NCBI GenBank assembly: GCA_947165275.1
Contig: CAMUZQ010000012.1
Coordinates: 1-48,139 of the forward strand
Length of the DNA: 48,139 bases
Direction: 5' to 3'
Origin: an uncultured Lachnospiraceae bacterium
GTDB lineage: Bacteria; Bacillota; Clostridia; Lachnospirales; Lachnospiraceae
Shown: one piece after another, positions 3,973 through 48,139 of the stretch
How the letters are laid out: every line of letters starts with the position of its first letter
How positions within the stretch are numbered: position 1 is the first letter of the stretch
The notes under the pieces: model-generated
Told to the model about the DNA's origin: nothing
Database searches by the model: none
Seen by the model: only the letters and a program-made list of their open reading frames with translations
Made by a program: the position numbers and the translations under genes

Positions 3973-3992
3973 ACTGACAGGAGATGCTCAAC

Positions 3993-28126: not shown

Positions 28127-29977
28127 ATGAGCAGCAATCAACTTTATCCATTTGAAAGAAACAGGTATTACCCCGGAAAGATGCTTACAAGCGTCGATTT
28201 CCAGGCTGAGCAGAACTATTATATCAATAAGGAGAGATTCCTGAACGGGCTGATGTACGGCTCGGGCATTATTTGCGGAATGGGTGTCTTCAGTCTGGAT
28301 GATCTCTCAATTCTGATCGAAAGCGGAGCGGCCATAGACGGCTCCGGGCGTGAGGTCATAATAGATGCGTCGGTAGTGAAAAAGCTTTCCGCCATAGAAG
28401 GCTTTGACAAGCTCAAGGGAGATGTGGCAAGGCTCAGGGTGCGTTTCAAGGAAAGGGACATCCACAGCGTTTATTCCATAAATCACAAAGAGGATGATAA
28501 GGAATATGAATATAACCGCATCTCGGAAGGGTATGAGCTGTTTCTGACTGATGTGGCGGATGAGACGGGGGAGTTCAGTCTGGAGACGGAATTCCTTACC
28601 AGGGAGCTGATCTTCAAGAGCGAGAACTTCGTAGGCGAGATCATGATGCCGGCTCATGTCTGTAAAGGCAAAACAGTCAAGATAGTGCTTGAGATAAGGA
28701 AGGTGAGTGACGCGGACGTCAGGCTTTCCTGCCGCGGAATACTGGAGACGCCGGTTTTTGCGACAGCGGATGATGAGCATGAGATCGAGATCGGCGTGGA
28801 GGATCTCTCGCTTCCTGCAGGCAAAACCTTCCAGAAGGAGTACTGGGTAAGGGTTGAGGAAACTCCCGCCATAGAGAGCGAGCTCATCCTCAGGAGCGGT
28901 ACGGCTTCAGCCTTTGAGGATGAGAATGCGATAAATACCACCAATCATTTTGCGATGCGCGTACTCCTCTCGGATGTCTCGCCCCTAAGGCTTGTAAACA
29001 GGGAAATAGGAAAGACCAATCTCGAGATGATGAATACAGGCTTTCTTGATGATTCCATTGCTCTTGCTGACATCAAGCTTGTACGCACAAGCTCCAGCTA
29101 TCTCATAGAGAATATCAGAGAGGAAGGCCTGAAGCGTTATGTGGTGACTCCGGCCCAGTCCATCACAAGAAATGAATATCTTGCATATTTCATGAAGGAT
29201 GTGGAGCTTAAAAAGCCTTCCGAGACAAGGGTTTCTTCAAGACCGGGCAGGGAGATCGAGCGCAAGAGCGAGTTTTCAAATATATCCACAGGAGTTCTGG
29301 AGATCCCTCTCGGGAAGAATGCAAGAGAGGGTGATATAAGATATTCCGGAGAGATCGCGCACGGTCTCGGACAGGGGAATATATATGTAGACATAGGATA
29401 CAGCTTTGTAAGCGATGATCCTGATCTGGGCGCCAATCAGAAGAGCACCATATACGGAAATCCGGATCTTTTCAGCAGACAGACCCAGAGACTTGCCGAT
29501 GTGGAGACCGCTGTCAAGGTATTGAATGAAAAGGGCTCCTTCGTGGTGGCGGCAAGACTTCTTCGCAATGTGGATTATCTCGTGCTCACCTTCAGATGGG
29601 TAGCCATAAGATTCCCTTCGGGAGATGAGATAGAGCTTACAGAGGATTATTATGATAAGAGCATTTCCGTGGATACGCCTACGGTGATAATGGGAACCAA
29701 GGAGAGCCACTTCTTCGGAGTCAGGTTCAATAATATGAAGGCGACCAGTATCACATACGAGCTTACTGCTGCCGGAAGCGGAGAGATCAGCTCTGACGGC
29801 ATTTATACTGCTCCCACCAAGGAGGGCGTATATGAAATCCGTATTTACTGTACGGATATGCCGGTCATATGTACATATGCATATGCGATAGTCAGGAAAA
29901 AGATGATAGACGATCCGATGCCGGATGTACCTGTAGGCGAGGCGCAAAGGAGCTCTAATGACATACAGATCCCGTAA
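28127..29977 (+). CDS. CIS-associated protein with N-terminal FERNRYYPGK-type domain and C-terminal Ig-like domain
   Basis: 616 residues, first gene of the CIS operon. The N-terminus (PFERNRYYPGKML, then DFQAEQNYYINKERFLNGLMYGSGIICGM) matches a domain that recurs in contractile injection system clusters of other phyla; I know it by pattern, not by function. The middle is beta-rich with several acidic strands, and the last ~90 residues look like a bacterial Ig-like domain (SGEISSDGIYTAPTKEGVYEI). There is no signal peptide or membrane segment. It may be a structural or baseplate-linked part. It overlaps the next gene by 20 nt. Confidence 0.75.
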   Translation: MSSNQLYPFERNRYYPGKMLTSVDFQAEQNYYINKERFLNGLMYGSGIICGMGVFSLDDLSILIESGAAIDGSGREVIIDASVVKKLSAIEGFDKLKGDVARLRVRFKERDIHSVYSINHKEDDKEYEYNRISEGYELFLTDVADETGEFSLETEFLTRELIFKSENFVGEIMMPAHVCKGKTVKIVLEIRKVSDADVRLSCRGILETPVFATADDEHEIEIGVEDLSLPAGKTFQKEYWVRVEETPAIESELILRSGTASAFEDENAINTTNHFAMRVLLSDVSPLRLVNREIGKTNLEMMNTGFLDDSIALADIKLVRTSSSYLIENIREEGLKRYVVTPAQSITRNEYLAYFMKDVELKKPSETRVSSRPGREIERKSEFSNISTGVLEIPLGKNAREGDIRYSGEIAHGLGQGNIYVDIGYSFVSDDPDLGANQKSTIYGNPDLFSRQTQRLADVETAVKVLNEKGSFVVAARLLRNVDYLVLTFRWVAIRFPSGDEIELTEDYYDKSISVDTPTVIMGTKESHFFGVRFNNMKATSITYELTAAGSGEISSDGIYTAPTKEGVYEIRIYCTDMPVICTYAYAIVRKKMIDDPMPDVPVGEAQRSSNDIQIP

Positions 29978-30803
29978 AACAAGCTATGAGGTGGTCTCCA
30001 CCATCATAAGCACCGGGGTGAATGACTGCTATCTGGCGCGTCCCGAGGGAGCCTCTGACGGCAGGGAATACACACTTGTCGTTATAAAGGATCATGAAAC
30101 GGTCAAGACTCTGATGGAGATCTACAGCACCTTCAGAAATCCGGACAGGGGTCTGCTCACGGAGTCCTTTTCCAGCGGGCAGACTTACGTGCTCGTATTC
30201 CCTTACAGACAGGAGAGACCGCTGGATGAATTCTTTGTGGGAGAGGCATATACCCTTACGAGATGTGAGGATATATGCACGAATCTCATACTGGACTGTA
30301 TTTCCTGTGGACTGCCGTATCCGCTGCTTTATCTGATACTTAAGCAGAGGCTCATCAATCTCGCAAAAGACGACAGTGTGTTTTTCAGCTATTCTCTGGA
30401 TCTTACGGAGCTTGACAGGACGAAGGTGGAGCGTGACTGCACGGTCAGGTGCGCGGAGATCCTGCTTGCTGTACTCGCTACGAAATCCGACCAGAAAAAT
30501 GTGAGCTATGAGCTTCTTTCCAAAAAGTCGGCAAACAGCAGCTACAGCTTTTTTACCGAGCTTTACAGGGATCTGCGCATCGCAGCTACTCCCGTAAAGA
30601 AGAGAAATATAATAGTCCGGATAAAAAGCTTTTTTTACAGGAATTCAGACAGGCTCTTCGGTATATTATTCTGGATATGCCTGATACTCGGGATAGTTGC
30701 TCTGGTACTTCTTTTTACACATCTTGTGTGGGGAGATGTGCCTTTTTTGAGGATATTTTTTAACAGTTTTAAGAAAATCGGAACGGAGTCACTGGTACAA
30801 TGA
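29958..30803 (+). CDS. Tail-anchored pseudokinase-like protein in the CIS operon
   Basis: 281 residues; AAAGGAG at 29946-29952 is 5 nt before the ATG. The first ~170 residues follow a protein-kinase plan: a start like YEVVSTI-STGVNDCYLAR, a VVIKDH segment where the VAIK lysine would be, a hinge-like YVLVFPYRQERPLDEF, and a late SLDL where DFG would be. No HRD catalytic loop or glycine-rich loop is visible, so it would be catalytically inactive. A single hydrophobic helix (about 235-257) near the C-terminus should anchor it to the membrane with the kinase-like part inside the cell. Its stop overlaps the next start (ATGA). Kinase ancestry is inference from short motifs. Confidence 0.6.
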   Translation: MTYRSRKTSYEVVSTIISTGVNDCYLARPEGASDGREYTLVVIKDHETVKTLMEIYSTFRNPDRGLLTESFSSGQTYVLVFPYRQERPLDEFFVGEAYTLTRCEDICTNLILDCISCGLPYPLLYLILKQRLINLAKDDSVFFSYSLDLTELDRTKVERDCTVRCAEILLAVLATKSDQKNVSYELLSKKSANSSYSFFTELYRDLRIAATPVKKRNIIVRIKSFFYRNSDRLFGILFWICLILGIVALVLLFTHLVWGDVPFLRIFFNSFKKIGTESLVQ

Positions 30804-33274
30804 ATATGCGTGTCCGCGTAATAGCGTGTCTGGCTATATTGAGCGTTTTGCTTTCTGTGATCATCTTTTCGGAGTGTATGGGGAATGTATCGCATGACCC
30901 TGAGTATACCTCCTATGATGAAGGTATTGCCTCTAATACAGGCGTTTATTTTATGGAAAACTGGAATGAAAGAGGCCGTCTTTATCAGCTTGATGACAAG
31001 GGTGATGTGCTTGAGATGCAGAATTCCGGCGTTGTCGGGATGCATTATATCGATGCCATAGAGATCGCCAATGATTCGGTATATGCCCTGTATTCCGATT
31101 TCCGTAATATAGGCGGGGATACGTATAATACATATGTCATCGCCTCTCATACCTCCTCGCTGGAGCTTGCCGCCGTTACAGATCCCTTTATCATAGATAT
31201 CACGGAGAATGTGACGGATCTTTGCTCTGACGGTGAAGCCATGTACATCACCACGGTGAACAGGGACGGAAACAGCATCAAGGTATATGCCGTGCCCATG
31301 GAAAGGCTTATTGATATCGCGGACAGGGAGGATTCCGTGGTAAACCCTCTTACCGGAGAGAGTGATTCCACCCAGGACGCCGCGGAGCTTAAATCTCCCG
31401 ATGTGCTGATGTTCAGGGAGAGCCCCATCGGCAGATATTATGCTGATGCATATTATGACGGGACCAATGTGATAATCCGGACAGATGCGGATCAGCCTGA
31501 GGGGTATTTTGCTCCGGATCTTCGTGTGAAGACGGCTGTGGATACCATGCATTTCAATTTCATACAGCAGATAATCCTTTATGCCAACTATGTCGCATGG
31601 TGGGCAGGCGGACTTATCATATGGTTCATAGTGATGGGGCTCCTCTATGCGGGGATCCGCATGAGAAGCCGTGCGGTGTATGTGTTTATCACATCCGAGC
31701 TCATGTATCTCATCATCATGATCATAGCGTTTGAGTTTGTGAGAACCGAGTATTCCGTCGGCGAAAGGAATCAGAATATAAGATATGCAGAGCTTGAGAT
31801 GCAGGAGGAGCTTGAGAGCTTCGTGGATCTCGATACTGTACAGTTCGGCGCAAAAAACTTCTACGACAGCGATATGTATATGAAGATCTTTGATTCCCTG
31901 AGACGTGTCATTTCAAGCGGTCAGAATGAAAAGATATATTATGACGTATTCATAATGCATCTGAAATCCGGGCTGATCGTAGCTGACGGCAGGGGAAGAA
32001 ATATGCAGGACGCCTCCTTTGTATACGGAAGCGCGCTGAGTGATCTGCAGAGCATTCTTTTGGGCGGCGACCTGTCTGCGGGAGTTCCCTTTGCCATAGG
32101 GGATACCAGGACTACGGCTGTCGGGGTCAAGGGAGAGGATCCCACTGCGAATTTTGCCCTGGTGGCGATCTGCTATGATCACAGCGGATCTACGGGCTTC
32201 TGGGCGAATTTCAGGCAGGTTTTCCTGCTCTTTGTTGTTATCTTCCTGCTGGGAAGCTTCATCATGCTCTTCATCTTCTATCTGCAGGCCATGGATCTGA
32301 AGAGGTTTGAAAATGCATTAAGGGATACGGCTCTGGGACGTAAGAATATAAAGATACCCGATACCGCCGCCATGGATATGAAGTCCATGTGGAATTCCCT
32401 GAGCGAGCTCTTAAAGCGGATGGAAGAGATCAATTATGAAAAATTTATGATCTTTGAGGGATATTACAGATTTGCTCCCAAAAATATCGAGACCATCATG
32501 GGCAAGGATTCCATCTTTGAGGTTCAGAACGGAGATATCACCAAGGTCTCCGGGACGCTGATGCTCTTTTCGACGGAGTCCGGGAACGGGGATTTCAGCG
32601 ACAGACGTGTTAAGAGTCTGGTTAACATAATCTCCTTTATGGATCATTTTTCGGAGAAGGAGGACGGGATCCTGGTGTCTCAGGACAGCTCGCTTTCGGT
32701 GCTCCAGTTCCTTTTCCTGGACAGGGAAAGGCATACTACCTCGACTGCTACCCAGTTCCTGCACAGGAATACCTCCGACAGAGGCTCGGATTTCGTATCC
32801 GGATTCCTGTATTATGATGATTTTATTTACGGTGTGGCGGGTACACGCACCCAGTGCCTTGCCTTCCTTACCTCCATACATACCAAGGAAATGGAGTCCT
32901 ATGCGATCTGGTTCCAGAGCATGCGCATCCCCCTTGTGATCACGGAGAGTATCGCAAGAAGAGAGGATACAGGACAGATCCGTTATATCGGCTTCATCAT
33001 CCTTGATTCGGACGGAAGGAAGATAAAGCTCTATGAAGTCATAGACGCTTCGCCTGCGAAGGTAAGGCAGCTGAAGCTCATGTCCAAGGATAAGTTCGAA
33101 GAGACACTGGAGCTCTTTTATTCAAAGGAATACTATCTGGCAAGGAATCAGTTCTCCGAGATCCTCAAGGAATGTCCGGAGGACAGCCTGGCAAAGTGGT
33201 ATCTTTTTGAGAGCGAGCGGTATCTGAACGGCGAGCTTGCGCCTTCAGACGGAGAGCTTCGCATAAGTGACTGA
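30800..33274 (+). CDS. Multi-pass membrane sensor with HAMP-like linker, degenerate class III cyclase domain and TPR-like tail
   Basis: 824 residues. An N-terminal hydrophobic helix (about 5-25) leads to an outside domain of about 230 residues with repeated strand patterns. Two more helices follow (about 267-285 and 293-314), then a second outside region of ~150 residues, then a fourth helix (about 474-498). Inside the cell, a HAMP-like linker leads to a region that starts FAPKNIETIMGKD and has VSGTLMLFSTES (588-594), where class III adenylate/guanylate cyclases have a metal-binding LFSD. Further cyclase-like segments are YGVAGT and PLVITESIA. The end (KFEETLELFYSKEYYLARNQF) is the helical repeat often placed after such cyclases. 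The metal-binding Asp is missing, so it probably binds rather than makes nucleotide. It may be the signal input of the CIS. Confidence 0.65.
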   Translation: MNMRVRVIACLAILSVLLSVIIFSECMGNVSHDPEYTSYDEGIASNTGVYFMENWNERGRLYQLDDKGDVLEMQNSGVVGMHYIDAIEIANDSVYALYSDFRNIGGDTYNTYVIASHTSSLELAAVTDPFIIDITENVTDLCSDGEAMYITTVNRDGNSIKVYAVPMERLIDIADREDSVVNPLTGESDSTQDAAELKSPDVLMFRESPIGRYYADAYYDGTNVIIRTDADQPEGYFAPDLRVKTAVDTMHFNFIQQIILYANYVAWWAGGLIIWFIVMGLLYAGIRMRSRAVYVFITSELMYLIIMIIAFEFVRTEYSVGERNQNIRYAELEMQEELESFVDLDTVQFGAKNFYDSDMYMKIFDSLRRVISSGQNEKIYYDVFIMHLKSGLIVADGRGRNMQDASFVYGSALSDLQSILLGGDLSAGVPFAIGDTRTTAVGVKGEDPTANFALVAICYDHSGSTGFWANFRQVFLLFVVIFLLGSFIMLFIFYLQAMDLKRFENALRDTALGRKNIKIPDTAAMDMKSMWNSLSELLKRMEEINYEKFMIFEGYYRFAPKNIETIMGKDSIFEVQNGDITKVSGTLMLFSTESGNGDFSDRRVKSLVNIISFMDHFSEKEDGILVSQDSSLSVLQFLFLDRERHTTSTATQFLHRNTSDRGSDFVSGFLYYDDFIYGVAGTRTQCLAFLTSIHTKEMESYAIWFQSMRIPLVITESIARREDTGQIRYIGFIILDSDGRKIKLYEVIDASPAKVRQLKLMSKDKFEETLELFYSKEYYLARNQFSEILKECPEDSLAKWYLFESERYLNGELAPSDGELRISD

Positions 33275-33304
33275 GGATACAAGGAAACAGGGATAATATA
33301 ACCA

Positions 33305-34558
33305 ATGGGCGGAAATCTGTTTAATGTATTATTTTCAACTATAAAGGGACGCTTTGTCGCCATCGTGGCAAGGCTCAGGCTGTGGACCAGCTGGAGCTTC
33401 ATCCGGGCCAGGGTCATCGGCGGCATAAGGGATTTCTTCTTCAGGCTGCTTGATGTAAAGCCTAAGAACAAGAATGATTATTATACGATCTTCGGCTGGA
33501 TGATAAGCAAGAGGCTTGCTTATGCGATCGTTGTGATCATAGGTGTTCTGAGTCTCTGGTATATAACGGCTACTACAAAGATCTTTGACAAGCTTACACA
33601 GAATGGCGGGATGCGTACTTATTCCTACAATTCGATCCTTCTCCGCCTCGCAAAGGACAAGGTCCGGATAAAGGCAAAGTCCGGATATCTGGCATATGAG
33701 GGAGAGGTGAGCAAGGGCTACTGCACCGGAGAGGGAAAGCTGTATTCCCCGAAGGAGGTCCTGCTCTACTCGGGGACCTTCCTGAAAAACCGTTACGAGG
33801 GACAGGGAAGCCAGTATTATGACACCGGGATACTTCACTACAGAGGGAATTTCCATGATAACCTCTATGACGGACAGGGGGTCTTATACAGAGAAGACGG
33901 CTCTGAGGAGTATGAAGGGAATTTCTTCAGCGGAATGAAGGAAGGAGCCGGGAAGCTTGTTGATTCGGGAAACAATCCTGTCTATGAGGGAACCTTTGCG
34001 TCGGACAGGATAGTATACAGTGAGCTGCTCGGAAAGAGCGCCGAGGAGATAAGGAGCATGTATTTCGGAGATCAGGTCCTCTATGAGGAGAGCGGTGATA
34101 TCGGAAGCGATGCTGTTGTCTATATGAGGGATATAGGCGCGCTCTATCTCTCACAGAGTGACGGAAGTGCCACCGATGATTCCCAGAAGGCAACCTCGGT
34201 GATAGTGATGAGCAATACCTTCAGATCCGGAGCCAGTGAAGCAAGGGATGTATCGGATCTTAATGAAATGTTTGGCGAACCGGAGTATGAGGGGAATTCC
34301 GCAGCCATCCTTCCTGAGGCCATCGCGATCAATCTGATGAATGAGAAAAAACAGGTTTTGAACGGCAGGGTCGATATGGATACTACCGAGGTCTACAGCG
34401 ATGATATCATGGTGAACAGCTTTGCCCAGGATTATACCGTTTACGTATATACCTATAAGAGAGGCGGGCTGGTATATTCGTTTGTATGCAGAGACAAGGG
34501 AGGAAGCTTTGCCTTCTATGAGATAATGGACAGCGGTGATGTGGATGAGGCGGCATAA
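33305..34558 (+). CDS. Membrane-anchored MORN-repeat protein
   Basis: 417 residues. One hydrophobic helix lies at about 71-90, preceded by a basic cytoplasmic segment. Four or five MORN repeats follow (about 124-225; YEGEVSKGYCTGEGKLY, then YSGTFLKNRYEGQGSQYY and similar). The last ~190 residues are a distinct domain without recognised motifs. MORN repeats form flat beta platforms that bind lipids or proteins. In this operon it may help seat the CIS at the membrane, which is inference. A weak ribosome binding site precedes the start; the end overlaps the next gene. Confidence 0.8.
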   Translation: MGGNLFNVLFSTIKGRFVAIVARLRLWTSWSFIRARVIGGIRDFFFRLLDVKPKNKNDYYTIFGWMISKRLAYAIVVIIGVLSLWYITATTKIFDKLTQNGGMRTYSYNSILLRLAKDKVRIKAKSGYLAYEGEVSKGYCTGEGKLYSPKEVLLYSGTFLKNRYEGQGSQYYDTGILHYRGNFHDNLYDGQGVLYREDGSEEYEGNFFSGMKEGAGKLVDSGNNPVYEGTFASDRIVYSELLGKSAEEIRSMYFGDQVLYEESGDIGSDAVVYMRDIGALYLSQSDGSATDDSQKATSVIVMSNTFRSGASEARDVSDLNEMFGEPEYEGNSAAILPEAIAINLMNEKKQVLNGRVDMDTTEVYSDDIMVNSFAQDYTVYVYTYKRGGLVYSFVCRDKGGSFAFYEIMDSGDVDEAA

Positions 34559-36599
34559 GGCATTAAAAAGCTGCATAGGGATCCTGGTCATGTTTTCGGT
34601 ATTTGCGGGAAGTCTTGCGCTTCCTCCACAGCAAAAAGCAGCTGCGGCAGAGAATACGAAAAAGATGACGCTTTCGACTGCCAGGTCCCTTGCATTGAAG
34701 AACAGCTCTGCCTATGATTCCGCGCAGAACGGGGTTGAGTCCAAGAAGGCTGCGCAGGAGAGCGCCCTTAAAGCGCTGAAGCTTAAGCAAAAGAATATGA
34801 TGAGCTTCCGCTGGTCCCCGATCTTCAACCTGAAGTTTCCGGAGAAACCGAATTTTGCGCAGGCTTCGCAGTTTCAGTTCAAGCCGATACAGCTTGCCTC
34901 CGATGTGCAGGTAGCCCAGCATAAGGTTCAGGATACGACCTTTGCGATAAACGAGCAGGTAAACAATCTGTATGTGGATATAGTGACGGTCCAGCAGACA
35001 CTGAAATTCAACGAGCAGAAGCTTGAAACCCTGAATAAGGGGATAGCGCATAATAAATCAAGACTAAAGCTTGGTGAGGCGACTCAGACGGATATCGACA
35101 GAGCCGATGCCCTCACAAATACAATAGCAGGGAACAGAAGAACGCTCGAGGCCGACCTGAAAAAGATGTCGGCGATCATAGGACTGGACGTGACTACAGG
35201 TTATACCTTTGAAAGACCCTATGTGGAGGCAAAGATAGACAGAAGCTCTCTGCCGGCTCTCATAAAATATACCGAGGACCGTGATGAGTCCTTCTACGAG
35301 GCCTGCACGAATGCTACGACAGCCAAAAAAGAATTGTCCACAAACTACGGTCTGATGAGAAATAAATACGGCTCCGAGATGGGGATCATATCGAATTATG
35401 TAAACCAGGCTCTTGACGGAAAGGCAGTAAGCGCCAGCGCCTTCAGGAAGGATTATAAGAAATTCCTTGAACAGATAGACAGCCACTGGAAGGGTTCCTT
35501 CAAAATAGGCTGGTTTATCAAGATCGACAGGGAATGGACTAAGGGAAGCCTTGACGGTACAAGGTATATTGAGGATGACCCGTATACGCTTTACCAGAAT
35601 GCCCTTGATTACCAGCAGGCCCTTAAGGATATGCAGGCGGCGCAGAAGGATCTGGACCAGACAGTGGAGGATTCCTTCAATAATTATATAAATCTGCGAA
35701 GCGCCTATGATCAGGCCATCAAGTCAGTGGATGATAAAGAAAAGGACATGAAGCAGTTTGCTGTGAAGAACCGCATGGGATATATGACACTCCAGGAATA
35801 CGAAGATGAGCAGGCTGATTATGAGGAGCTTCAGAATGCGCTCTTCGATGCCATGAAGTCCTATACGACGACTCTTTATTCCTTTGACCGCCTGACCTGC
35901 GGCGGGGTGAGCGCCCTTCTTTCGGGCACCGATGCAGATCTGAAGACTGCTGTGGTGGGTGAGAGCTATGTGGATAAGGATTCAAAGGAAGCAATGTATT
36001 TCATTAAGCCCATCATCCAGAGGGATCTTTTTGAGCTGACTATATTCATTCCGCAGGATTTTCCGGTGGAAATCTCAGATTTCGAGCTCTGGTGCGATAA
36101 TATCCAGGTCGGAGAAAGGACAAAAAAGGATAATGCCTTAAGGCATCTGACCATCTCAAAGGATATGACATCGGAGGTTAAGATCAGGCTGTATAACGGA
36201 GAGGAATTCGTGGACGACTGCGTCATCGATCCGGAAGAGGAAAAGGGCCCCCTGAATATAGTCACAGCCATGAATATAAAGAAGGATGAAACCGGAGATA
36301 TAGGAACCTTCTCCACCTCCTTAAGTGATGTCACCGGGCTTGTGACCATAACCTTCAAGCCTCTTGAGAGCGAGGGGATCAAATATTACAGAGTGCTTTC
36401 ACCTGAGGGCGAGCCTCTGGGTGACGGCAAGAACAAGAGCATCGATCAGGGCTTTACGCATCTTGCGCTGGTATCCACTGATCTGGATACCCTGAAGATA
36501 GAGCTCTATGATGAATCGGAAAACCTGAAGTACAATGCATATCTGGATACTGCAAACAAGAAGATGAAGAAAAAGACGGATACAAATGAGCAGGAATAG
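34545..36599 (+). CDS. TolC-like secreted alpha-helical protein
   Basis: About 684 residues from the ATG at 34545; GTG at 34536 and ATG at 34539 are other possible starts, all overlapping the MORN gene. A signal peptide covers about 1-32 and ends in an Ala-rich cleavage region. Residues about 37-460 have the TolC-superfamily pattern: MTLSTARSLALKN at the start, long amphipathic helices, and KLGEATQTDIDRADA where TolC proteins have RxxxGxxxxxD. A beta-rich C-terminal part (about 470-650) is not TolC-like. In Gram-negative bacteria TolC spans the outer membrane; this organism appears to have none, so a periplasm- or wall-spanning helical tube or spacer is a possible role. It is co-translated with the gene after it (14-nt overlap). 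Confidence 0.75.
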   Translation: MRRHKALKSCIGILVMFSVFAGSLALPPQQKAAAAENTKKMTLSTARSLALKNSSAYDSAQNGVESKKAAQESALKALKLKQKNMMSFRWSPIFNLKFPEKPNFAQASQFQFKPIQLASDVQVAQHKVQDTTFAINEQVNNLYVDIVTVQQTLKFNEQKLETLNKGIAHNKSRLKLGEATQTDIDRADALTNTIAGNRRTLEADLKKMSAIIGLDVTTGYTFERPYVEAKIDRSSLPALIKYTEDRDESFYEACTNATTAKKELSTNYGLMRNKYGSEMGIISNYVNQALDGKAVSASAFRKDYKKFLEQIDSHWKGSFKIGWFIKIDREWTKGSLDGTRYIEDDPYTLYQNALDYQQALKDMQAAQKDLDQTVEDSFNNYINLRSAYDQAIKSVDDKEKDMKQFAVKNRMGYMTLQEYEDEQADYEELQNALFDAMKSYTTTLYSFDRLTCGGVSALLSGTDADLKTAVVGESYVDKDSKEAMYFIKPIIQRDLFELTIFIPQDFPVEISDFELWCDNIQVGERTKKDNALRHLTISKDMTSEVKIRLYNGEEFVDDCVIDPEEEKGPLNIVTAMNIKKDETGDIGTFSTSLSDVTGLVTITFKPLESEGIKYYRVLSPEGEPLGDGKNKSIDQGFTHLALVSTDLDTLKIELYDESENLKYNAYLDTANKKMKKKTDTNEQE

Positions 36600-39393: not shown

Positions 39394-39412
39394 AAGGACA
39401 GGAAGATATAAA

Positions 39413-40003: not shown

Positions 40004-40060
40004 TCTTATCTTCTCTTAAACTGTTTGTATTGCTTTTAACGAAAGGAGGACTGGATCGGA

Positions 40061-40798: not shown

Positions 40799-41184
40799 GT
40801 TTGCTCGTTGCTATGGGAGCCACGACCCTGTGTACCATGGGTACGGCGCCGGCGCCCATTAAGGTTACATCGCAGACCAAGGTATTGACGGAGGGAAAGC
40901 CCGCCGCAACTATCCAGGACAGCGCACCTATGACAAATGTGGGACCTTACGGCATGTGTACATCGCTTGTGAATCCTGCAGTGGCAGCGGCTACGGCTGC
41001 GGCACTGGGAGTTTTGACACCACAGCCATGCACACCGGTACCGGCAGGTACATGGATACCGACAAAGCCGAAAGTTCTTCTGGGCGGGAGACCCTGCCTT
41101 ACACAGGACTGTAAGCTGGTATGCGCCTATGCCGGGCAGATATCCATCACGCTTCCGGGGCAGACAAAGGTAAACGCGGAATAA
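40795..41184 (+). CDS. PAAR-like (DUF4280) tip protein
   Basis: 129 residues starting at GTG 40795, with AGGAGG (40782-40787) 7 nt upstream and a 4-nt overlap with the previous gene. The pattern (MGATTLCTMGTAPAPIKV, then ATIQDSAPMTNV and GRPCLTQDCKLVCAYAGQISI) matches DUF4280, a PAAR-related family found in contractile injection clusters. It should form the sharp tip on the spike and may carry cargo. Five cysteines are present, some possibly binding metal as in PAAR tips. Confidence 0.88.
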   Translation: MSLLVAMGATTLCTMGTAPAPIKVTSQTKVLTEGKPAATIQDSAPMTNVGPYGMCTSLVNPAVAAATAAALGVLTPQPCTPVPAGTWIPTKPKVLLGGRPCLTQDCKLVCAYAGQISITLPGQTKVNAE

Positions 41185-41219
41185 CCGCAGCACACAAAAA
41201 GAAAGGAAAGATATTAAAG

Positions 41220-42923
41220 ATGGCAGAATATTTTTCACCAGGTGTATATGTGGAGGAGTATGATAATTCCCCACGTAGTATAGAAGGAGTAGGTACAAGC
41301 ACCGCCGGATTTGTCGGACTGGCTGAAAAAGGCCCCGTTATCGGCGCACCGCTTTTTGTATCAAGCTTCAAGCATTTCACACAGCAGTTCGGCGGATTCT
41401 TAAGTGAATTCGCATATGGAGAGTACAGATTCCTTGCAAACAGCGTAGAGCAGTTCTTCGCCAATGGCGGAACGCGCTGCTTCGTGATGAGGGTCGCTCC
41501 CAAGGATGCGGCAGCTTCATCAGCTGAGAGAGGCATACTCACCGTATCTGCAAAGAACCCGGGTGTATGGGGCGATAAGGTTCAGGTCACACTGAATACT
41601 GTCAAGAGACATAAGCTCCAGCTCCTGGCAAAAACAGAAACAGGCTATAAGGCAAAGAATGTAGATGGCTTCAGAGAAGGCGATATAGTCGAGTTCCAGG
41701 GCAAGTATACCAGGATCAGGACTATCATGGACAGGATAGTCACCTTTGAGGACGAGCTGCCCGACAAGGCCGTTGATGATGCCATAATTCCGAAGTCACT
41801 TCTTTATCTCGTAACAATGGATATGGGAATCCGTTACGGAGACGAGGCGGAGACATATCAGGAGCTCAGCTTCAATATATCTTCACCCCGTTACATCGGC
41901 GCAAGGCTTGCCGGAAGCGACCTTGTCGATGTTGAAGTAGCTCCGATGAAAAAGGTCGGAAACCCGGTAGAGGAGATACTGGGTGAAGGCAATGAGAGCG
42001 GAGCCTTCTTCCTTGAGGGCGGCTCTGACGGCTCAGTATCAAAGATCAATGCGGCAACCTTCATAGGTGAGGACAACGGCCCCGGCAAGCGTACGGGACT
42101 TCAGTCCTTCATAGAGAACAACAATGTGAGCATGATGGCAATACCCGGGATCACCATCCCCGAGGTTGTGGTTTCACTCGTAGCTCATTGTGAGAATCTC
42201 AAGAGCCGTTTTGCTGTCCTTGATATGCCGGGCGATCTTTACAAGACTGCTGACCTCATAGGCTACAGAAATATAGTGGATTCAACCTATGCGGCTATGT
42301 ATCATCCCTGGATACAGGTGTTTGACAGGTCTTCAAATAAAGCCGATTATATTCCTCCTTCAGGCGCGGTCATGGGTGTATATTCCAGGACCGACGAGAC
42401 CAGAGGCGTACATAAGGCTCCTGCAAACGAGGTGGTTTTCTGTACAGGGCTTAAGACAAATTACAATAAGGATGAGCAGGATATCCTGAATCCGGAAGGC
42501 GTAAACCTTATCCGTGCATTGCCCGGACAGGGCATCCGTGTATGGGGCGCCCGTACTGCATCGTCCAACAGTGCATTTAAGTATGTCAACGTGCGCAGGC
42601 TCTTCATATATGTGGAGGAGAGCATCAAGGCAAATACCAACTGGGTTGTATTTGAGCCTAATGACGCTACGCTTTGGCAGAGAGTTCAGCTTTCAGTATC
42701 AGGCTTCCTTGACGGTCTGTGGAGAAACGGCATGCTCGCGGGCGATTCACCTGCAACGAGCTACTTCGTCGAGATCGGACCTTCGACGATGTCGAGGGAC
42801 GATATCATGAACGGCAGACTGATATGTAACATTGGAATAGCACCTTCAAGACCTGCAGAGTTCGTCATCTTCCGTGTAACTCAGTTCACGGCTGAAGCGA
42901 ACGGCGGCGGTGAAGAAGGCTGA
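41220..42923 (+). CDS. Contractile sheath protein
   Basis: 567 residues from the ATG at 41220, preceded by GAAAGGAAAG. The N-terminus AEYFSPGVYVEEYDNSPRSIEGVGTSTAGFVG is diagnostic of CIS and phage sheath proteins. The C-terminal domain carries RRLFIYVEESIKANTNWVVFEPND and GPSTMSRDDIMNGRLICNIGIAPSRPAEF. It forms the outer tube that contracts to drive the inner tube outward. Only one sheath gene is in this window, unlike the three of PVC/Afp. There is a 24-nt gap to the tube gene, so both are probably made at high level. Confidence 0.96.
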   Translation: MAEYFSPGVYVEEYDNSPRSIEGVGTSTAGFVGLAEKGPVIGAPLFVSSFKHFTQQFGGFLSEFAYGEYRFLANSVEQFFANGGTRCFVMRVAPKDAAASSAERGILTVSAKNPGVWGDKVQVTLNTVKRHKLQLLAKTETGYKAKNVDGFREGDIVEFQGKYTRIRTIMDRIVTFEDELPDKAVDDAIIPKSLLYLVTMDMGIRYGDEAETYQELSFNISSPRYIGARLAGSDLVDVEVAPMKKVGNPVEEILGEGNESGAFFLEGGSDGSVSKINAATFIGEDNGPGKRTGLQSFIENNNVSMMAIPGITIPEVVVSLVAHCENLKSRFAVLDMPGDLYKTADLIGYRNIVDSTYAAMYHPWIQVFDRSSNKADYIPPSGAVMGVYSRTDETRGVHKAPANEVVFCTGLKTNYNKDEQDILNPEGVNLIRALPGQGIRVWGARTASSNSAFKYVNVRRLFIYVEESIKANTNWVVFEPNDATLWQRVQLSVSGFLDGLWRNGMLAGDSPATSYFVEIGPSTMSRDDIMNGRLICNIGIAPSRPAEFVIFRVTQFTAEANGGGEEG

Positions 42924-42947
42924 GACAGGGAAAGGAAGTGATAGATA

Positions 42948-43451
42948 ATGCCAGCTACAACTTATGATGACGGTAAGGGTCAGTACTATCCCTTGACCAA
43001 AATGAATTTCCTCGTCACCGTCTCCGAGATTTCGGGAACCGCTGCATTCAGCGAGGTGACAGGTGTGGAGAGCTCGGTAGATGTGATCGAGTTCAGACAG
43101 GGTAACTCAGGTTCACTTGCGCCGGTTAAGATCCCGGGACTTGTAAAGCACGGGAATGTCACCCTTCGTATGGGATATATCATCGAAAGCGGTTTCAAGA
43201 CCTGGATCCAGGAGTGTGTGAGCGAGACCAGAGGAGCTCTTCCAAGATATGATGTGACGATAGAGCTTATCGACACGAACCCCCATGCCCCCACGGCTAC
43301 TGTAACTGCTACATCCACAGAGCACAGGGTATGGACACTTACAAATGCATGGGTAGCGAAGTATAATGCTCCCGACCTCGACGCAAAGAACTCAGATGTT
43401 GCTATTGAGAGTGTCGAGATAGCATATGAGGAACTTGTAATACCTAACTGA
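42948..43451 (+). CDS. Inner tube protein
   Basis: 167 residues of the T4 gp19 / Pvc1-type tube family: PLTKMNFLVTVSEISGTAAFSEVTGVESSVDVIEFRQG near the start, KIPGLVKHGNVTLRMG, and VESVEIAYEELV at the end. Hexamers stack into the inner tube that delivers cargo. It has a good AAAGGAAGTG site and sits directly after the sheath. A structured intergenic region follows. Confidence 0.95.
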   Translation: MPATTYDDGKGQYYPLTKMNFLVTVSEISGTAAFSEVTGVESSVDVIEFRQGNSGSLAPVKIPGLVKHGNVTLRMGYIIESGFKTWIQECVSETRGALPRYDVTIELIDTNPHAPTATVTATSTEHRVWTLTNAWVAKYNAPDLDAKNSDVAIESVEIAYEELVIPN

Positions 43452-43630: not shown

Positions 43631-43993
43631 ATGGAAACCGTATATGATTTTATCCTGCCGAAGGGATATCTTGATTCGACGGGAGAGCTGCATAAAAGAG
43701 GAAAGATGAGACTTGCGACAGCGGGTGATGAGATCTCTGCCACAAGGGATCCCAGAGTGTTGCAGAACCCTTCATATCTGACGATAGTCATACTGTCAAA
43801 GGTCGTGACCGAGATCGAGGGTGTGGATTCCATATCAGCTACCCTGATTGAGAGATTATTCACTGCGGATCTGGCATTTTTGCAGGATATGTATCAGAGG
43901 ATAAATGACATAGAGCCTCCTACACTCACAGCGGTCTGTCCCGACTGCGGCAGAAGCTTTGAGGTACCGCTAAATTTTACCGGGGAGGGTTGA
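43631..43993 (+). CDS. Tail-assembly chaperone-like CIS protein (gp41-like)
   Basis: 120 residues. VYDFILPKGYLDSTGELHKRGKMRLATAGDEI and RDPRVLQNPSYLTIVILSKVVT match the small tail-assembly protein that follows the tube gene in many CIS and some phages. A CPDCGR segment near the end could be half of a zinc ribbon. Strong AGGAGG before the ATG. The last codons contain an in-phase A-AAT-TTT slippery heptamer (43972-43978), and the next ORF is in the -1 frame, so a longer frameshift product is likely. Confidence 0.85.
   Translation: METVYDFILPKGYLDSTGELHKRGKMRLATAGDEISATRDPRVLQNPSYLTIVILSKVVTEIEGVDSISATLIERLFTADLAFLQDMYQRINDIEPPTLTAVCPDCGRSFEVPLNFTGEG
43972..43978 (+). other. Candidate -1 ribosomal frameshift site
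   Basis: AAATTTT is read as A-AAT-TTT in the frame of the gene starting at 43631, the classical X-XXY-YYZ phase. Slipping back one base continues as TAC CGG GGA GGG TTG AGG without a stop, straight into the next gene. The product would have about 190 residues (116 from the first frame and 74 from the second). Tailed phages make the G and GT chaperones in this way. Confidence 0.55.
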
Positions 43994-44202
43994 GGCTCTA
44001 TCCGGAGGAAGAGCTCTACAAGGAGATGGCGTTTATCTCATATTACTTCCACTGGAGCGAAGATAACGTGATGGGACTCGAGCACAGACAGAGGAGAAAG
44101 TGGTGCGGTGAGATATCAGGGATCAACGCAAGCCTCAATCCCTCCAAGGAAAAGAAGGAAAAGAGCATCATTGATATGAAGCCGGGAATACAATTCGGCT
44201 AA
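43990..44202 (+). CDS. Small CIS protein (DUF6760-like), possibly made as a frameshift extension
   Basis: 70 residues if started at TTG 43990, which overlaps the previous stop by 4 nt. LYPEEELYKEMAFISYYFHW and MGLEHRQRRKWCGEIS match a small family that follows the gp41-like gene in CIS clusters. The SD-like GGGGAGG ends only about one base before TTG, too close for efficient initiation. This makes translation by -1 frameshifting from the upstream gene a reasonable alternative. Confidence 0.75.
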   Translation: MRLYPEEELYKEMAFISYYFHWSEDNVMGLEHRQRRKWCGEISGINASLNPSKEKKEKSIIDMKPGIQFG

Positions 44203-44240
44203 GGTTTACATAATATCACAAAACAGGAGAATCGGAACAG

Positions 44241-45245
44241 ATGGCAGAACAGGGCGGTACTGCAGCGGATGCTGCAAAAAATGCTATAAAAAAGGTCGGT
44301 AAAGGAGGCAATTATAACAGAGACAGCAAGAAGTCAGTATTGAATCCGGCGCCGGGATTTAACTTTGCCCTGCAGGTGGAGGCAGCCTTTTTCGTTCCTT
44401 TAAGGTCTGTAAGGGTCTTCACCAAGGAGAACGAGTTTGATTATTATCAGGAGGGCGGACTGAATGACTATGTCCATATGCTGAGGAAGCCTATAAGCAA
44501 GCCCTTTACCTTCCAGGTGGAGAGGTATGTGGCGGTTTCATCCGGCCTGGGTCTGGTTGATCCTCTGTCACTGGGGACTGATCTCATACTTCCGCTCATA
44601 CTCTATGTGAACAGGCAGCCGAGAGAGAGCTGGGACAGCATAAGCTTCACCAACTGCGCCAGGGCATATGTATTTACGGGCTGTACCGTTATCTCCAAGG
44701 AATTCGGAGAGCTGAATTCGGAGCAGAGCAAGCTTGCGACCGAGACCACTACCATATCCTACAGGGAGATGTTTATCATGAACCAGGTGGATCCCTCACT
44801 TGAATCCGGGGAACCCTGGAATATAAAGGATGACTCAAACTCGCATCCTGAAAACAGGCAGTCCGGCGAAAGCAGGAAAAAGCTTGATGAGCAGGCCAGG
44901 GACTCTATGTGGGCCATGTCAAAGGAAGGGCCTGCAGGAAATAACAAGTTCCATACAAGGGATAAGATGTCAAAGGACGGGAAGCCTCAGGGCACCGTCA
45001 CCGGCAACAGCCAGAACAGAAAGACAGGCGATGAACTCGGAAAATCAGAAAGATGGGTTTTCGACGGTTCGCTGTCCGGCAAGGGAAAGGCTCATACGCA
45101 GAACCGTAATGTGGGCGTGAGACCGGAGGTCATCAAATATCCTCCCACAAAAAGGGCGCATCAGGCTGAGAGTGCGAAGCCTGAGGTCGTTAAATATCCT
45201 CCGACGAAGAGAGCGCTTAAGGCAGACGCTCTGGCTAAGAAATGA
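44241..45245 (+). CDS. Second tube-family protein (baseplate-proximal) with long charged tail
   Basis: 334 residues; start preceded by ACAGGAG. Residues about 35-190 are a tube-like fold (FNFALQVEAAFFVPLRSVRVF, YVHMLRKPISKPFTFQVERY, TISYREMFIMNQVDPSLE), like the Pvc5/Afp5 tube initiator that connects tube and baseplate. The remaining ~140 residues are hydrophilic and probably disordered, ending in two copies of PEV(I/V)KYPPTKRA (from about residue 295). The tail is unusual for the family and may tether a partner. Its stop overlaps the next start by 4 nt. Confidence 0.82.
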   Translation: MAEQGGTAADAAKNAIKKVGKGGNYNRDSKKSVLNPAPGFNFALQVEAAFFVPLRSVRVFTKENEFDYYQEGGLNDYVHMLRKPISKPFTFQVERYVAVSSGLGLVDPLSLGTDLILPLILYVNRQPRESWDSISFTNCARAYVFTGCTVISKEFGELNSEQSKLATETTTISYREMFIMNQVDPSLESGEPWNIKDDSNSHPENRQSGESRKKLDEQARDSMWAMSKEGPAGNNKFHTRDKMSKDGKPQGTVTGNSQNRKTGDELGKSERWVFDGSLSGKGKAHTQNRNVGVRPEVIKYPPTKRAHQAESAKPEVVKYPPTKRALKADALAKK

Positions 45246-47320
45246 TTACCTTAAAGGCGCCTATAGAGCTGAAAAACCGCACGGATTTTGTCCATGATAA
45301 CGAAAGCTTCCCGGAGCGTATCACGGGCAATTACGGACTTATGAGCTCCGGGATCGGAGCGGAGGAGCTGCTGCATCTTCTGAGCACCCCCCCTGAGATA
45401 TATCTTTCCGAGGGTGATGCGGTGACGACGATGGGAAATACCCTTGTACAGAGTCACAATGAGGAGAAGCTCAATATAATAAATAATGTGCTGAACAGGA
45501 TACTTTTTTCCACGGAAGCATCACTTACCTATCAGGACAGGACATATATAACCGATGCCCTTTACAAGCTTGGCATAAGGGATGACAGGAAATTCATGAA
45601 TGAGGTCAGACGTTTCATGGAGGAGTCGGATCTCGAGCAGAATTTTATAAATGATTATCTTAGCCTTCAATATGATGAGGACAATACAAGCCTCAGGATC
45701 GAAACCCTGAAAGAGGCAAGGGAGCTTGTGGAAAGAGAGCTTGCGGAGAGCTTTGATATAAGAGAGAATACACTGAGCCGGAGGATCATGGAAAGACTCG
45801 GTACAGGCGAGATCTACCAGATCGTGGCTAATTTCAATAAGAGCATAAATGAGACCTCTGTCGGAGGCGCCCAGTTCATGATCTCCGAGCAGGAAAACAC
45901 CGCCCAGAAGATATTGATAAATAATTTTGTCAATAATATGGAGCAGGAGGGAGCAGAGCTCATATACCGCACAGAGAGGATACCCGAAGGGGAGGATGAT
46001 GAGGTGCCGGATTCATCCCCGGTATCCGGAGAGCTTATCAGATATATAAGCGATAATATTTATGAAAGGGAGATCCTTAAGGAGAGGTCCAAAGAGACCC
46101 GTACCACCGAAGAAATAGGAGCGGCTGTGATGCTGGATCTTGTAAAGAACCTGTATAACAGCGGATATGAGACGATAGTCGGGGGAAGCTCCTGGATGGA
46201 ATTCAGAAATGTCCTGTACGGATCCTCTGAAAATACCTTTAACAGGGTGAGCTATCAGGCATCTGAGAGCAATCCCATTATGAGGTTCACAGAGGAAAAC
46301 ACGGAAAATACCAGGATAGATCTGGATTTTGCGGAGCTCTCCGAGCTTACCGAGATAGAGGAGGATGCGGAGAATATTGCTCTCATAGAGAAGCAGCTCA
46401 ATGAAATAAACCAGAGCAATCTGCAGAATGTGGAGCGCTATGAGCAGATGCTTGAGACTCTCAAAAAGCTTGAGCCTCCCAAAGAGAGGACCGGCGGGAG
46501 AGAAAGGACCAGACGTGATGCTCTCTCTGCCCTGGAGGGAGAGCAGGATATACTTGCCCGTTTTGCTGAGAGCGAGGGAGAGCAGGAGCAGGAAAGGGCG
46601 CAGGTCTTCCATGAGATCACAAGGCTTTTCCCGGACAATGCAGCGCAGATCTTCCAGGTTCTGGAGCAGTATATGACTGATCCGGAGGGGCTTCAGGGGA
46701 TCAGCATCACGAATAATAATGTGGCACAGGCTGCCGAGGAGATAGCAAGATTTGTAAGACAGTCCGAGGATGAAAGAGAGCAGGCTGTTGCAAGAGAGAG
46801 GATCTTCAGAGAGATAGAGAGACTGTATCCTGATGATACGGAGAGGATCTCTCAGATGGTGGAGCAGTATCTTTCTGATCCCGAAAGCCTTGAGGGCGTG
46901 AATATAACAAACAGAAATGTGGTCGAGGTCATCGAAGAGATCGAAAGACTCCAGCAAAGACAGCAAAGAGCGGTTCCGGAGAGCAGACCGCAGGCACTGC
47001 CTGCAGGAAATGAGCTTGTATTCAGGAGAGAGGAGCGTCTTTCGGCGGATGAGATCGAGGAGATCTTCGAGGGCTACCGCAGGCAGGAAAACAGGCAGAG
47101 ACGGGATATTACCGACAATGAAGATATAAATGAGGTTCACAGGGTGAATAATACCACCGTGATCCAGTCAGGAGAAAGGAATTTTACGGAGCAGGAGCTG
47201 TATAATATACAGGATATGGTAAGACAGGGCGTCCGGTCCCAGATGGGAACCATATCCGAGCAGGTGATGCAGAAGCTTGAAAAGAGACTTCGGAATGAGA
47301 AGAGCAGAAGAGGTATCTGA
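45242..47320 (+). CDS. Large helical CIS protein of unknown function
   Basis: 692 residues, acidic and mainly helical, no signal peptide or membrane helix. It lies between the second tube gene and the Pvc7-like gene. Residues 451-506 and 519-575 are a tandem duplication (RLFPDNAAQIFQVLEQY and RLYPDDTERISQMVEQY versions, 204 bp apart). The C-terminus (ISEQVMQKLEKRLRNEKSRRGI) fits a short motif of basic, ERxRRG-like ends that I associate with small baseplate-connected proteins of other CIS clusters. It may be an enlarged version of such a protein. A tape-measure role is possible but not supported by a clear long coiled coil. Confidence 0.7.
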   Translation: MITLKAPIELKNRTDFVHDNESFPERITGNYGLMSSGIGAEELLHLLSTPPEIYLSEGDAVTTMGNTLVQSHNEEKLNIINNVLNRILFSTEASLTYQDRTYITDALYKLGIRDDRKFMNEVRRFMEESDLEQNFINDYLSLQYDEDNTSLRIETLKEARELVERELAESFDIRENTLSRRIMERLGTGEIYQIVANFNKSINETSVGGAQFMISEQENTAQKILINNFVNNMEQEGAELIYRTERIPEGEDDEVPDSSPVSGELIRYISDNIYEREILKERSKETRTTEEIGAAVMLDLVKNLYNSGYETIVGGSSWMEFRNVLYGSSENTFNRVSYQASESNPIMRFTEENTENTRIDLDFAELSELTEIEEDAENIALIEKQLNEINQSNLQNVERYEQMLETLKKLEPPKERTGGRERTRRDALSALEGEQDILARFAESEGEQEQERAQVFHEITRLFPDNAAQIFQVLEQYMTDPEGLQGISITNNNVAQAAEEIARFVRQSEDEREQAVARERIFREIERLYPDDTERISQMVEQYLSDPESLEGVNITNRNVVEVIEEIERLQQRQQRAVPESRPQALPAGNELVFRREERLSADEIEEIFEGYRRQENRQRRDITDNEDINEVHRVNNTTVIQSGERNFTEQELYNIQDMVRQGVRSQMGTISEQVMQKLEKRLRNEKSRRGI

Positions 47321-47324
47321 ATAG

Positions 47325-48139
47325 ATGTCAGTTTTCAGTGCGATAGGAGGAGCAGTCTCCGGACTCGGAGACAATAAGGCATTTCAGAATCTGGGCAGGG
47401 GCATTACGGGAAATAACGTAAAGGCTGTGCTCTGCATACGCAAGCCCCCGGAAGCCGGAGACACTGATAAGAAGACGGAGGAGAACCTGATCAATTTTAA
47501 CAGTGTGGAATCCGCATTAAATGATGTGTCAAAGCTGAACAATACCCTTATAAAGTCATATACAAATGACACCAAGGGACAGGGTGTTCTCGGAATGGCG
47601 AGCAAGGCCCTTAATAAGGCCTCCGTATCAACATATAGCGATATAAAGTCGGATGTGGAAAGCAACCATTATATCGCGCTTGAGGTCCAGTATAATCCTG
47701 GTTCCCTGCGGCTTGATACCAGCGCCGGAAAGCAGCAGAGCATGGTCGGAGAGGGTATGAATAAACAGATGAGGACCTTCGAGTCTCCTGTATCCACGAC
47801 CTTAAGCTTTGAGCTTCTCTTTGATGATGTCAATAATATGGATGCCTTTATGCTCTCGGATAATCCGATCACCGGGCTGACGGTGTCAAATGTGACAAAT
47901 CAGGTGACCAGCATGATAAAAAAGGACTACAGTGTCCAGAGGCAGATGGAGGGACTGCTGTCACTCCTTACCATAGAATCCGCCAAGCATGTGATCTTTT
48001 TCTGGGGGAATATGTGTTTCAGGGGAGATGTCACGAGAGTGAGCACCGCCTATACCATGTTTAATAAAAAAGGATATCCCGTAAGGGGCAAGGTCGGACT
48101 GTCCATAAGGCAGGGAAGCGCGATCAATGCAAGGGATGC
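47325..48139 (+). CDS. Pvc7/Afp7-like CIS tube-baseplate adaptor, partial (runs off the window)
   Basis: The frame opens at ATG 47325 (4 nt after the previous stop) and stays open to the window edge, 271 codons. LEVQYNPGSLRLDTSAGKQ, FESPVSTTLSFELLFDDV, then FFWGNMCFRGDVTRV and TMFNKKGYPVRGKV follow the CIS tube-adaptor family (Pvc7 N-terminal domain). Full-length members often end in a LysM domain, which would lie beyond this window. It should link the inner tube to the spike. There is no good ribosome binding site beyond GAGGTATCTGAATAG, so translation is probably coupled to the gene before. Confidence 0.85.
   Translation, partial: MSVFSAIGGAVSGLGDNKAFQNLGRGITGNNVKAVLCIRKPPEAGDTDKKTEENLINFNSVESALNDVSKLNNTLIKSYTNDTKGQGVLGMASKALNKASVSTYSDIKSDVESNHYIALEVQYNPGSLRLDTSAGKQQSMVGEGMNKQMRTFESPVSTTLSFELLFDDVNNMDAFMLSDNPITGLTVSNVTNQVTSMIKKDYSVQRQMEGLLSLLTIESAKHVIFFWGNMCFRGDVTRVSTAYTMFNKKGYPVRGKVGLSIRQGSAINARD

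Follow-up and report, generated by a model that had tools for sequence, protein, structure and literature searches.

A conserved module of envelope-type genes within a Bacillota contractile injection system operon and its putative role in membrane docking

The window, the 48,139-nucleotide stretch of DNA analysed here from an uncultured Lachnospiraceae bacterium of the rumen-type gut flora, carries a contractile injection system (CIS) operon in which genes for membrane and secreted proteins are interleaved with structural genes. The cap and PAAR genes are part of one conserved unit with genes A, B, C and D, to which the window's lineage adds E and F. As this kind of module recurs across the phylum and marks one CIS branch, it probably holds and triggers the CIS at the cell envelope. 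The preferred reading, to which a probability of about 0.6 is assigned, is that of a membrane-docked, signal-gated CIS with its own envelope complex, representing a distinct Bacillota clade; the postulated docking, gating and outward firing would make the complex analogous to the T6SS membrane complex rather than homologous with it. The conserved module gives many Bacillota CIS an envelope address, and it names candidate anchor, sensor and wall parts.

Organization of the locus

The CIS unit begins with A (28127..29977; this and all features below are on the + strand), a Cis13-type protein of 616 amino acids that matches NCBIfam CIS13_fam over residues 8-149 (5.1e-22). The envelope-type genes B-F occupy positions 29958-39393, between A, which starts at 28127, and the Pvc16-type cap gene G, which starts at 39413. 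Genes A-J share one strand with intergenic gaps of -23 to +57 bases, which makes a single transcription unit plausible. A preliminary description had placed the five envelope genes ahead of the CIS genes in one unit; the single unit remains plausible, whereas the placement requires amendment because A is itself a CIS gene, and the five genes therefore lie inside the CIS operon.

The assignment of the distal genes to CIS parts was borne out. The cap protein G (39413..40003) matches Pvc16_N (PF14065, 3.9e-27), and the PAAR-like tip protein I (40795..41184) matches DUF4280 (1.6e-31) and PAAR (3e-4). Between these genes, in a conserved position, is H (40061..40798), a protein of 245 amino acids with no Pfam match at E<=1. 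J (41214..42923, with the start codon position taken from relatives) is the contractile sheath protein (PF04984, 1.2e-17; PF17482, 1.9e-15), K (42948..43451) is the inner tube protein (PF06841, gp19, 9.5e-29), and L (43631..43993; 120 amino acids) resembles a tail assembly chaperone (phrog_508, 3.9e-8). M (44241..45245) is a second tube or tube adaptor-like protein that matches CIS5_fam weakly (2.8e-4). The gene position of N (45242..47320), a variable protein of 692 amino acids with low identity among relatives, suggests a tape measure. The contig ends within the gene for the Pvc7-like CIS tube protein O (47325..48139; PF19266, CIS_tube, 2.1e-20). A second contig of this genome holds another five CIS genes; a spike OB protein, gp25, and Cis11 and Cis12 types are encoded there. 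Sheath, tube, gp25, spike, baseplate, cap, PAAR and AAA ATPase together make up a structural set of the eCIS type, the ATPase gene being seen in relatives only.

Directly upstream of A are a response regulator and a histidine kinase (25852..27983; Response_reg 6.5e-16, His_kinase 9.2e-18). These are possible regulators of the CIS locus, and occupy this position in a minority of related loci with room for them (11/51 and 10/51, respectively). No Omp85 match was found in the genome, and the host is presumed on this one marker to have a single membrane.

Membrane-segment proteins B, C and D

The membrane helices or signal peptides previously ascribed to the five envelope proteins were found in B-F by a hydropathy scan, as distinct from a trained predictor: one segment near the C-terminus of B, four in C, one in D, a signal-like segment in E and one N-terminal segment in F. 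The same scan gave just a marginal hydrophobic stretch in A (46-64), within the N-terminal domain.

B (29958..30803) comprises 281 amino acids, with a kinase-like cytosolic domain, a C-terminal membrane segment (233-251) and a short tail containing GTESL. The earlier label of pseudokinase finds partial support: kinases head the weak list of PDB matches to the B profile (2x4f, 0.002; NEK1, 0.0069; titin, 0.011-0.028), whereas the Pfam scan of 11 members returned no kinase family. A charge bias is present in all 10 members having the membrane segment. The B protein of a second locus type has no membrane segment, which counts against the docked reading.

C (30800..33274) is a receptor of 824 amino acids with four membrane segments and, by prediction, two outer regions, a HAMP domain, a degenerate class III cyclase domain and a helical C-terminal region. 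The four segments occur in 11/11 members, two of which show an additional weak fifth. The dead cyclase of the preliminary description finds partial support among members, with HAMP (2.2e-10) and Guanylate_cyc (1.3e-4) each matched in one of 11, but the window's own C matches neither, and the catalytic residues were judged by eye. HAMP structures are among the PDB matches to the C profile. Matches to C near E 1e-6 were rejected as evidence because most span the HAMP part only.

D (33305..34558; 417 amino acids) has one membrane segment (71-89) followed by MORN repeats (MORN, 3.4e-10). The N side is the more positive in 7 of 15 members; charge does not fix the orientation, and this too was counted against docking. 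In the second locus type D is longer, owing to an extension made up of a Gly/Ala linker with a long region at the C-terminus. Homology of this extension with F was rejected (hhalign probability 17.5% over 24 columns). One of four members matched OEP at 0.0025, although the hhalign probability of 2.9% over 273 columns does not establish homology with E.

TolC-fold protein E and anchored protein F

E (34536..36599; 687 amino acids) has a signal-like N-terminus, a TolC-fold helical domain spanning approximately residues 44-460, and a C-terminal β-strand region (487-680). Its TolC-like character was upheld as regards the helical fold with its internal repeat, which is present in the predicted model and in fold searches, but not as regards the membrane: the single-chain model contains no outer-membrane β-barrel, and strands at 92-100 and 321-331 are just 3-4 residues long. 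E points to a TolC fold in use without an outer membrane.

F (36586..39393; 935 amino acids) comprises an N-terminal anchor, a mostly helical middle, a variable Gly-Ser linker and a C-terminal copper-amine-oxidase-N domain. Outside this last domain there is no convincing fold match, in a region much of which was barely covered by the searches. The suggestion that the linker is a wall-spanning part is not supported because the linker is variable or absent among relatives: by the measure adopted here, a Gly-rich stretch of at least 30 residues is present in 25 of 52 and absent in 6. In PHROGs the D repeats matched one family of unknown function (2.8e-11) and the F linker one (1e-3), with nothing for B, C and E; PADLOC gave one weak match, in F (3.5e-4). 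A phage or defence origin of B-F was rejected on these results.

The E and F profiles returned nothing in module loci G298, G841 and G826, and thus E and F are not general module parts. Their absence from several module loci is consistent with a stress checkpoint that leads the producer to fire on itself, a role proposed for CisA in Streptomyces, whereby B, C and D would recruit free cytosolic particles to the membrane on a stress cue and the producer would be punctured or lysed. The resemblance of C to a receptor with HAMP agrees with such a role, as does the failure of a scan of 20 window proteins to reveal any wall-cutting enzyme, a result that was counted against docking with outward firing. 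Self-directed firing is nonetheless considered unlikely, since puncturing its own membrane would not require the producer to have E, which is secreted, or F, with its anchor and outer domain, and both are left unexplained in the window's lineage.

Conservation in related loci

A collection was scanned for related loci and the best 80 of 209 were kept; the counts among these 80 take only loci whose contig reaches the place concerned. A, B, C and D each occur in 59/59 loci with room, A being upstream of E, and F occurs in 58/58, Pvc16 in 57/58 and the sheath in 53/53. The envelope genes are a conserved component of this kind of CIS, in support of the preliminary description. Gene order within the operon is fixed across relatives. 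No strong E was seen without either an adjoining CIS gene or a contig break. Long loci were read for 23 of the 34 relatives that bear a sheath gene; the remainder were covered through matches or short loci. The records of two isolates, Butyrivibrio sp. Su6 and Lachnospiraceae bacterium AD3010, hold the locus, and T6SS-like behaviour in Gram-positives becomes directly testable in such organisms.

Most of the best 80 of 209 loci have record titles of one family, so the gene order could be inherited, and B-F might then be an unrelated export or signalling system that is near the CIS through vertical descent alone. Such inertia is weakened because the A-I block, which is kept together, is found on either side of the sheath block and has moved as a unit. 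Together with co-occurrence and adjacency in many families and the small number of module genes found without CIS genes, this renders an unrelated system very improbable. The interleaving of these genes with CIS genes, which they accompany across families, led to the rejection of a lysis or lone-signalling operon as the main reading.

Distribution in the class and phylum and the sheath tree

In the class sample, 8 of 14 other Pvc16 genomes have a strong C, and D is present in the same 8; across the class, seven families have C- and D-type genes in company with CIS. A strong E occurs in 4/391 genomes of this sample, all 4 with Pvc16. In 12 class genomes the E profile matched weakly (E 1e-6 to 8e-4), so other TolC-family proteins without a CIS role may exist there. 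Among the 398 genomes of the phylum sample, C (E<=1e-20) is present in 9, Pvc16 in 15 and both in 8; with the window's own genome set aside, 7 of 8 C genomes have Pvc16 (hypergeometric P 9e-11, relatedness ignored). Envelope genes devoid of a CIS, which the preliminary description named as contrary evidence if common to most relatives, are rare: C lacks Pvc16 in 1/9 genomes phylum-wide, and a lone C-like gene was seen once among 99 relatives (G065). That case was counted against docking, as were G737, where a C-like gene has only a sheath fragment nearby, and G687, where C is missing while A, B, D and an E-like gene are present.

The converse arrangement, CIS without B-F, does exist in the phylum, but in the sheath tree these systems lie across the branch from the module-bearing ones. 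Six module-less clusters read beyond the Cis13-type gene gave no B-F match at E<=1e-3; for genomes G297, G338, G389 and G461 the absence of the module was judged from profiles alone, and G295 was read only as far as Cis11, at its contig end. The tree has 27 rows, 12 from the 34 sheath-bearing relatives and the other 15 supplied by the class and phylum samples (G360, one of these 15, being a partial sheath), and all 20 module rows fall on one side of one branch (90/99). Shuffled module presence required a mean of 6.4 changes, and 0 of 500 shuffles were as low as the tree. Left out were G076, the loci whose fetched stretch offered no usable sheath (G820, G826, G566, G785, G415, G687, G780 and G649), and the additional sheath copies in G855, G667 and G580.

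The presence of similar module-less CIS in the phylum, and the eCIS-like structural gene set, would suit particles that are released like classical eCIS, with the module merely sensing when to make or release them. The agreement of module presence with the sheath tree argues against such release, as does the interleaving of module genes with the Cis13, cap and tip genes, which goes beyond what upstream regulators would show. E and F moreover appear structural, and release is regarded as quite improbable.

Proposed function

In the preferred, membrane-docked arrangement, the kinase-like, tail-anchored B and the four-segment receptor C would be cytoplasmic-membrane proteins that bind the baseplate via A (Cis13), Cis11 or Cis12. 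C may sense an outside cue, and a signal passing through HAMP and the degenerate cyclase would release firing. D, E and F would comprise the outer part of the complex, E being a TolC-like helical guide that lacks a membrane barrel, and F being tethered by its anchor while its C-terminal domain grips the wall or a partner. The sheath would push the tube outward across membrane and wall.

A broader proposal, held tentatively and at somewhat less than even odds, is that these systems are the monoderm counterpart of the T6SS, docked at the Gram-positive cytoplasmic membrane and fired outward on receptor triggering through a wall-spanning TolC-fold channel that lost its barrel. The docking module would have had a single origin, in the ancestor of one CIS clade, and a later spread through Bacillota, the channel being either free (E) or fused to the MORN protein.

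Comparison with known systems

No description of this CIS envelope module was found in the literature searched. What is known of how CIS act in bacteria with a single membrane comes mostly from Streptomyces. The likeness to TssJLM of the T6SS lies in the proposed role, in which a contractile apparatus is held at the producer's envelope and the envelope is spanned. Homology of B-F with the T6SS was rejected, since the Pfam scan, a comparison of sequence only, returned no T6SS family at E<=1, those of the TssJ, TssL and TssM membrane complex included. The T6SS has a two-protein sheath, TssB/TssC, whereas this cluster has a single phage-type sheath gene (PF04984/PF17482), and in contrast to the setting of the T6SS membrane complex there is no outer-membrane marker in this host. 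E differs from TolC and OprM in its lack of barrel-length strands, its extra C-terminal β-strand region and its host without an Omp85 match.

The haloarchaeal aT6SS of Halogeometricum shares eCIS-type structural genes and, in one cluster group, a link to a membrane protein; according to that report, which offers a precedent for the docked reading, a putative membrane anchor accompanies the T6SS mode in haloarchaea, and Bacillota are nearest to the haloarchaeal clusters by Cis11 (PMC11566945). That anchor is one protein with six predicted membrane helices (PMC11566945), whereas here several proteins have one to four segments each; the hydropathy scan found no six-helix protein among A-F, the maximum being the four strong segments of C. 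The thylakoid tCIS of Anabaena resembles this system in that A is of the Cis13 kind. Membrane anchoring there is reported to involve Cis13, which has its own C-terminal membrane helix (PMC8894136), whereas A has no segment of that kind. A second precedent comes from Streptomyces, where the membrane protein CisA is required for CIS contraction (PMC12237407); common to the two systems are a single-membrane host and a separate membrane protein, there required for firing. CisA is one bitopic protein in that account (PMC12237407), whereas the present module is a conserved set that comprises a receptor together with MORN, TolC-fold and anchored outer proteins.

Organization of the CIS gene run

The window is one complete contig out of 153 in a genome of 2.88 Mb. 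From 28127 up to the contig end it carries 15 genes (A–O), all on the forward strand. Gene A, which begins at 28127, encodes a Cis13-type protein and is followed by the five proteins flagged in the preliminary description, here termed the module. These are a kinase-like, tail-anchored protein (B), a four-segment receptor with HAMP and a degenerate cyclase (C), an anchored MORN protein (D), a protein with a signal-like N-terminus and a predicted TolC fold (E), and a protein with an N-terminal anchor and a predicted copper-amine-oxidase-N domain at its end (F), the anchoring elements being visible as hydrophobic segments. The genes of the contractile injection system (CIS) continue the run with a Pvc16 cap (G), H, a PAAR-like tip (I), the sheath (J), the tube (K), a chaperone-like protein (L), a weak Cis5-type match (M), a variable protein whose place is that of a putative tape measure (N) and a Pvc7-like tube protein interrupted by the contig end (O). 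Between A and J, neighbouring genes are separated by -23 to +57 bases. On a second contig, the same genome encodes a spike OB protein, gp25, Cis11 and two Cis12-type proteins. The CIS sets of relatives are more complete and include spike, gp25 and baseplate genes as well as the AAA ATPase. In locus L033 (1629-3528), from a relative, a STAS protein, an ABC-type ATPase and a membrane histidine-kinase-like ATPase stand between Cis12 and the AAA ATPase; a CIS role for this trio is not obvious.

Immediately upstream of A are a response regulator and a histidine kinase (25852-27983), matched in 11 and 10, respectively, of the 51 loci with room upstream of A. They are preceded by a 2385-aa protein (18688-25845) that has a signal peptide, repeats, a long region rich in Ser/Thr and a membrane segment at its C-terminus. 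Kin of its C-terminal part occur upstream of A in 16/51 loci, and the protein is a possible surface partner of the CIS. A 1405-aa Clostripain-family (C11) protein with a long low-complexity acidic tail is encoded at 3984-8201.

Conservation of the module among relatives

When named genomes were scanned with E, 209 relatives emerged, and the best 80 of the 209 were analysed. Their record titles give Lachnospiraceae, Butyrivibrio, Eubacterium, Acetatifactor or only Clostridia/bacterium, and the stated sources, where recognised, are animal rumen or gut. Counting within these 80 only loci whose contig extends to the gene's place, A, B, C and D are each present in 59/59, F in 58/58, G in 57/58 (L160 being without a match) and the sheath in 53/53.

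Among 99 relatives, the sheath is present in 34 (own genome counted); 27 of these matches are continuous with at least 56% identity and seven are split in two pieces, six of which give ~50% identity on full-length reading. Strong E matches (>100 bits) occur in 30/99, namely 26 of the 27 continuous-sheath genomes and four with no sheath match (G010, G018, G043 and G045). The sole continuous-sheath genome without strong E, G017, has C. In three of the four sheath-less genomes the contig edge cuts the module, and A adjoins it; G043 appears to be locus L098, as contig number and coordinates agree, and L098 holds A–H. G010 carries C–F in two copies on separate contigs (L167, L168), and given its 5% contamination this genome is possibly mixed. 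A C-type receptor in G065 (L164:11190-13937), with no CIS match within the 15 kb read, is possibly a stand-alone ancestor or a module escapee.

Co-occurrence across class and phylum

Pvc16 was found in 15/391 genomes sampled from the class. With the window's genome excluded, strong C is present in 8/14 Pvc16 genomes and D in the identical eight (G076, G319, G184, G298, G360, G432, G415 and G123); the other six have neither, giving only weak HAMP-range C matches. Strong E occurs in 4/391 class genomes, every one Pvc16-positive, and 12 further genomes have weak matches only; the E-like genes of G360 and G432 were detected by locus scan only. When G096 and the window's genome are counted in, genomes with C and D come from seven families (f1, f17, f24, f50, f72, f83 and f102), and gene tables of the neighbourhood show these genes going with CIS. 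G123 has two CIS, one module-bearing and one module-less.

In a phylum sample of 398 genomes, C (E ≤ 1e-20) is present in nine, Pvc16 in 15 and both in eight. With the own genome excluded, seven of eight C genomes have Pvc16 (P = 9e-11, relatedness ignored), on separate contigs in the case of G785. G737 is the lone C genome without a Pvc16 match; there, within L225:1968-6220, a 279-aa open frame matches the sheath at 5e-16, ~1 kb before the C-type receptor, and this fragment is possibly a decayed CIS. Seven genomes have Pvc16 without C. Among them, G687 combines A, B and D with an E-like gene, F-like pieces adjoin the cap gene in G780, and the contig of G649 is too short to judge the module; the remaining four are G580, G667, G855 and G788, whose clusters are module-less.

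In a second locus type, seen among the relatives, A, a B-like gene, C, a longer D, G, H and I are grouped ~16-18 kb downstream of the sheath, in contrast to the first type, where the A–I grouping lies upstream. The B-like protein is without a membrane segment, and D runs on through a Gly/Ala linker into a long extension, which matches OEP weakly in one of four members. This extension may substitute for E. G096, of a different family, has the second arrangement, yet E and F are present.

Module-less clusters and sheath phylogeny

In an unrooted sheath tree of 27 hand-picked rows, the 20 module rows all fall on one side of a single branch (support 90/99), which recurs in 89% of 200 bootstrap trees. 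Shuffled module labels required a mean of 6.4 changes, and 0/500 shuffles were as low as the sheath tree, which allows a single origin of the module. Six module-less clusters (G233, G123a, G855, G667, G580 and G788) read through Cis13 and past gave no B–F match at E ≤ 1e-3; the G295 cluster is readable only to Cis11, at the contig end. The G233 CIS (L212, L213, L255) is followed by three long proteins of 873, 895 and 1923 aa, each matching the Cis13 profile, and the clusters of G855, G667 and G580 (L236-L239, L244, L245) have a tandem pair of sheath genes.

Proposed function and comparison with known systems

Among the matches listed, in a search that covered few subscription journals and no bioRxiv preprints, no title or abstract start described these genes, and earlier notice of the module elsewhere is possible. 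The only listed match combining "contractile injection system" with Lachnospiraceae is a cockroach hindgut study. The main text of PMC8213781 has zero occurrences of MORN, TolC, cyclase, HAMP or "membrane protein", and two passages of PMC12923769 concern Bacillota fibre domains.

We propose that B, C and D would form a membrane complex, with A or the neighbouring Cis11 and Cis12 proteins as its link to the baseplate. C would read an outside cue and gate firing, and D, E and F would make up the outer part. The main rival is a checkpoint resembling CisA, the Streptomyces membrane protein needed for CIS contraction, with firing at the producer's own membrane. Membrane docking of the module-bearing CIS is plausible in view of published cases: one paper states that every previously studied CIS binds a membrane before firing (PMC12237407), Anabaena is described as using Cis12 and Cis13 for membrane docking (PMC8894136), and haloarchaeal clusters with contact-dependent action are associated with a putative membrane anchor (PMC11566945).
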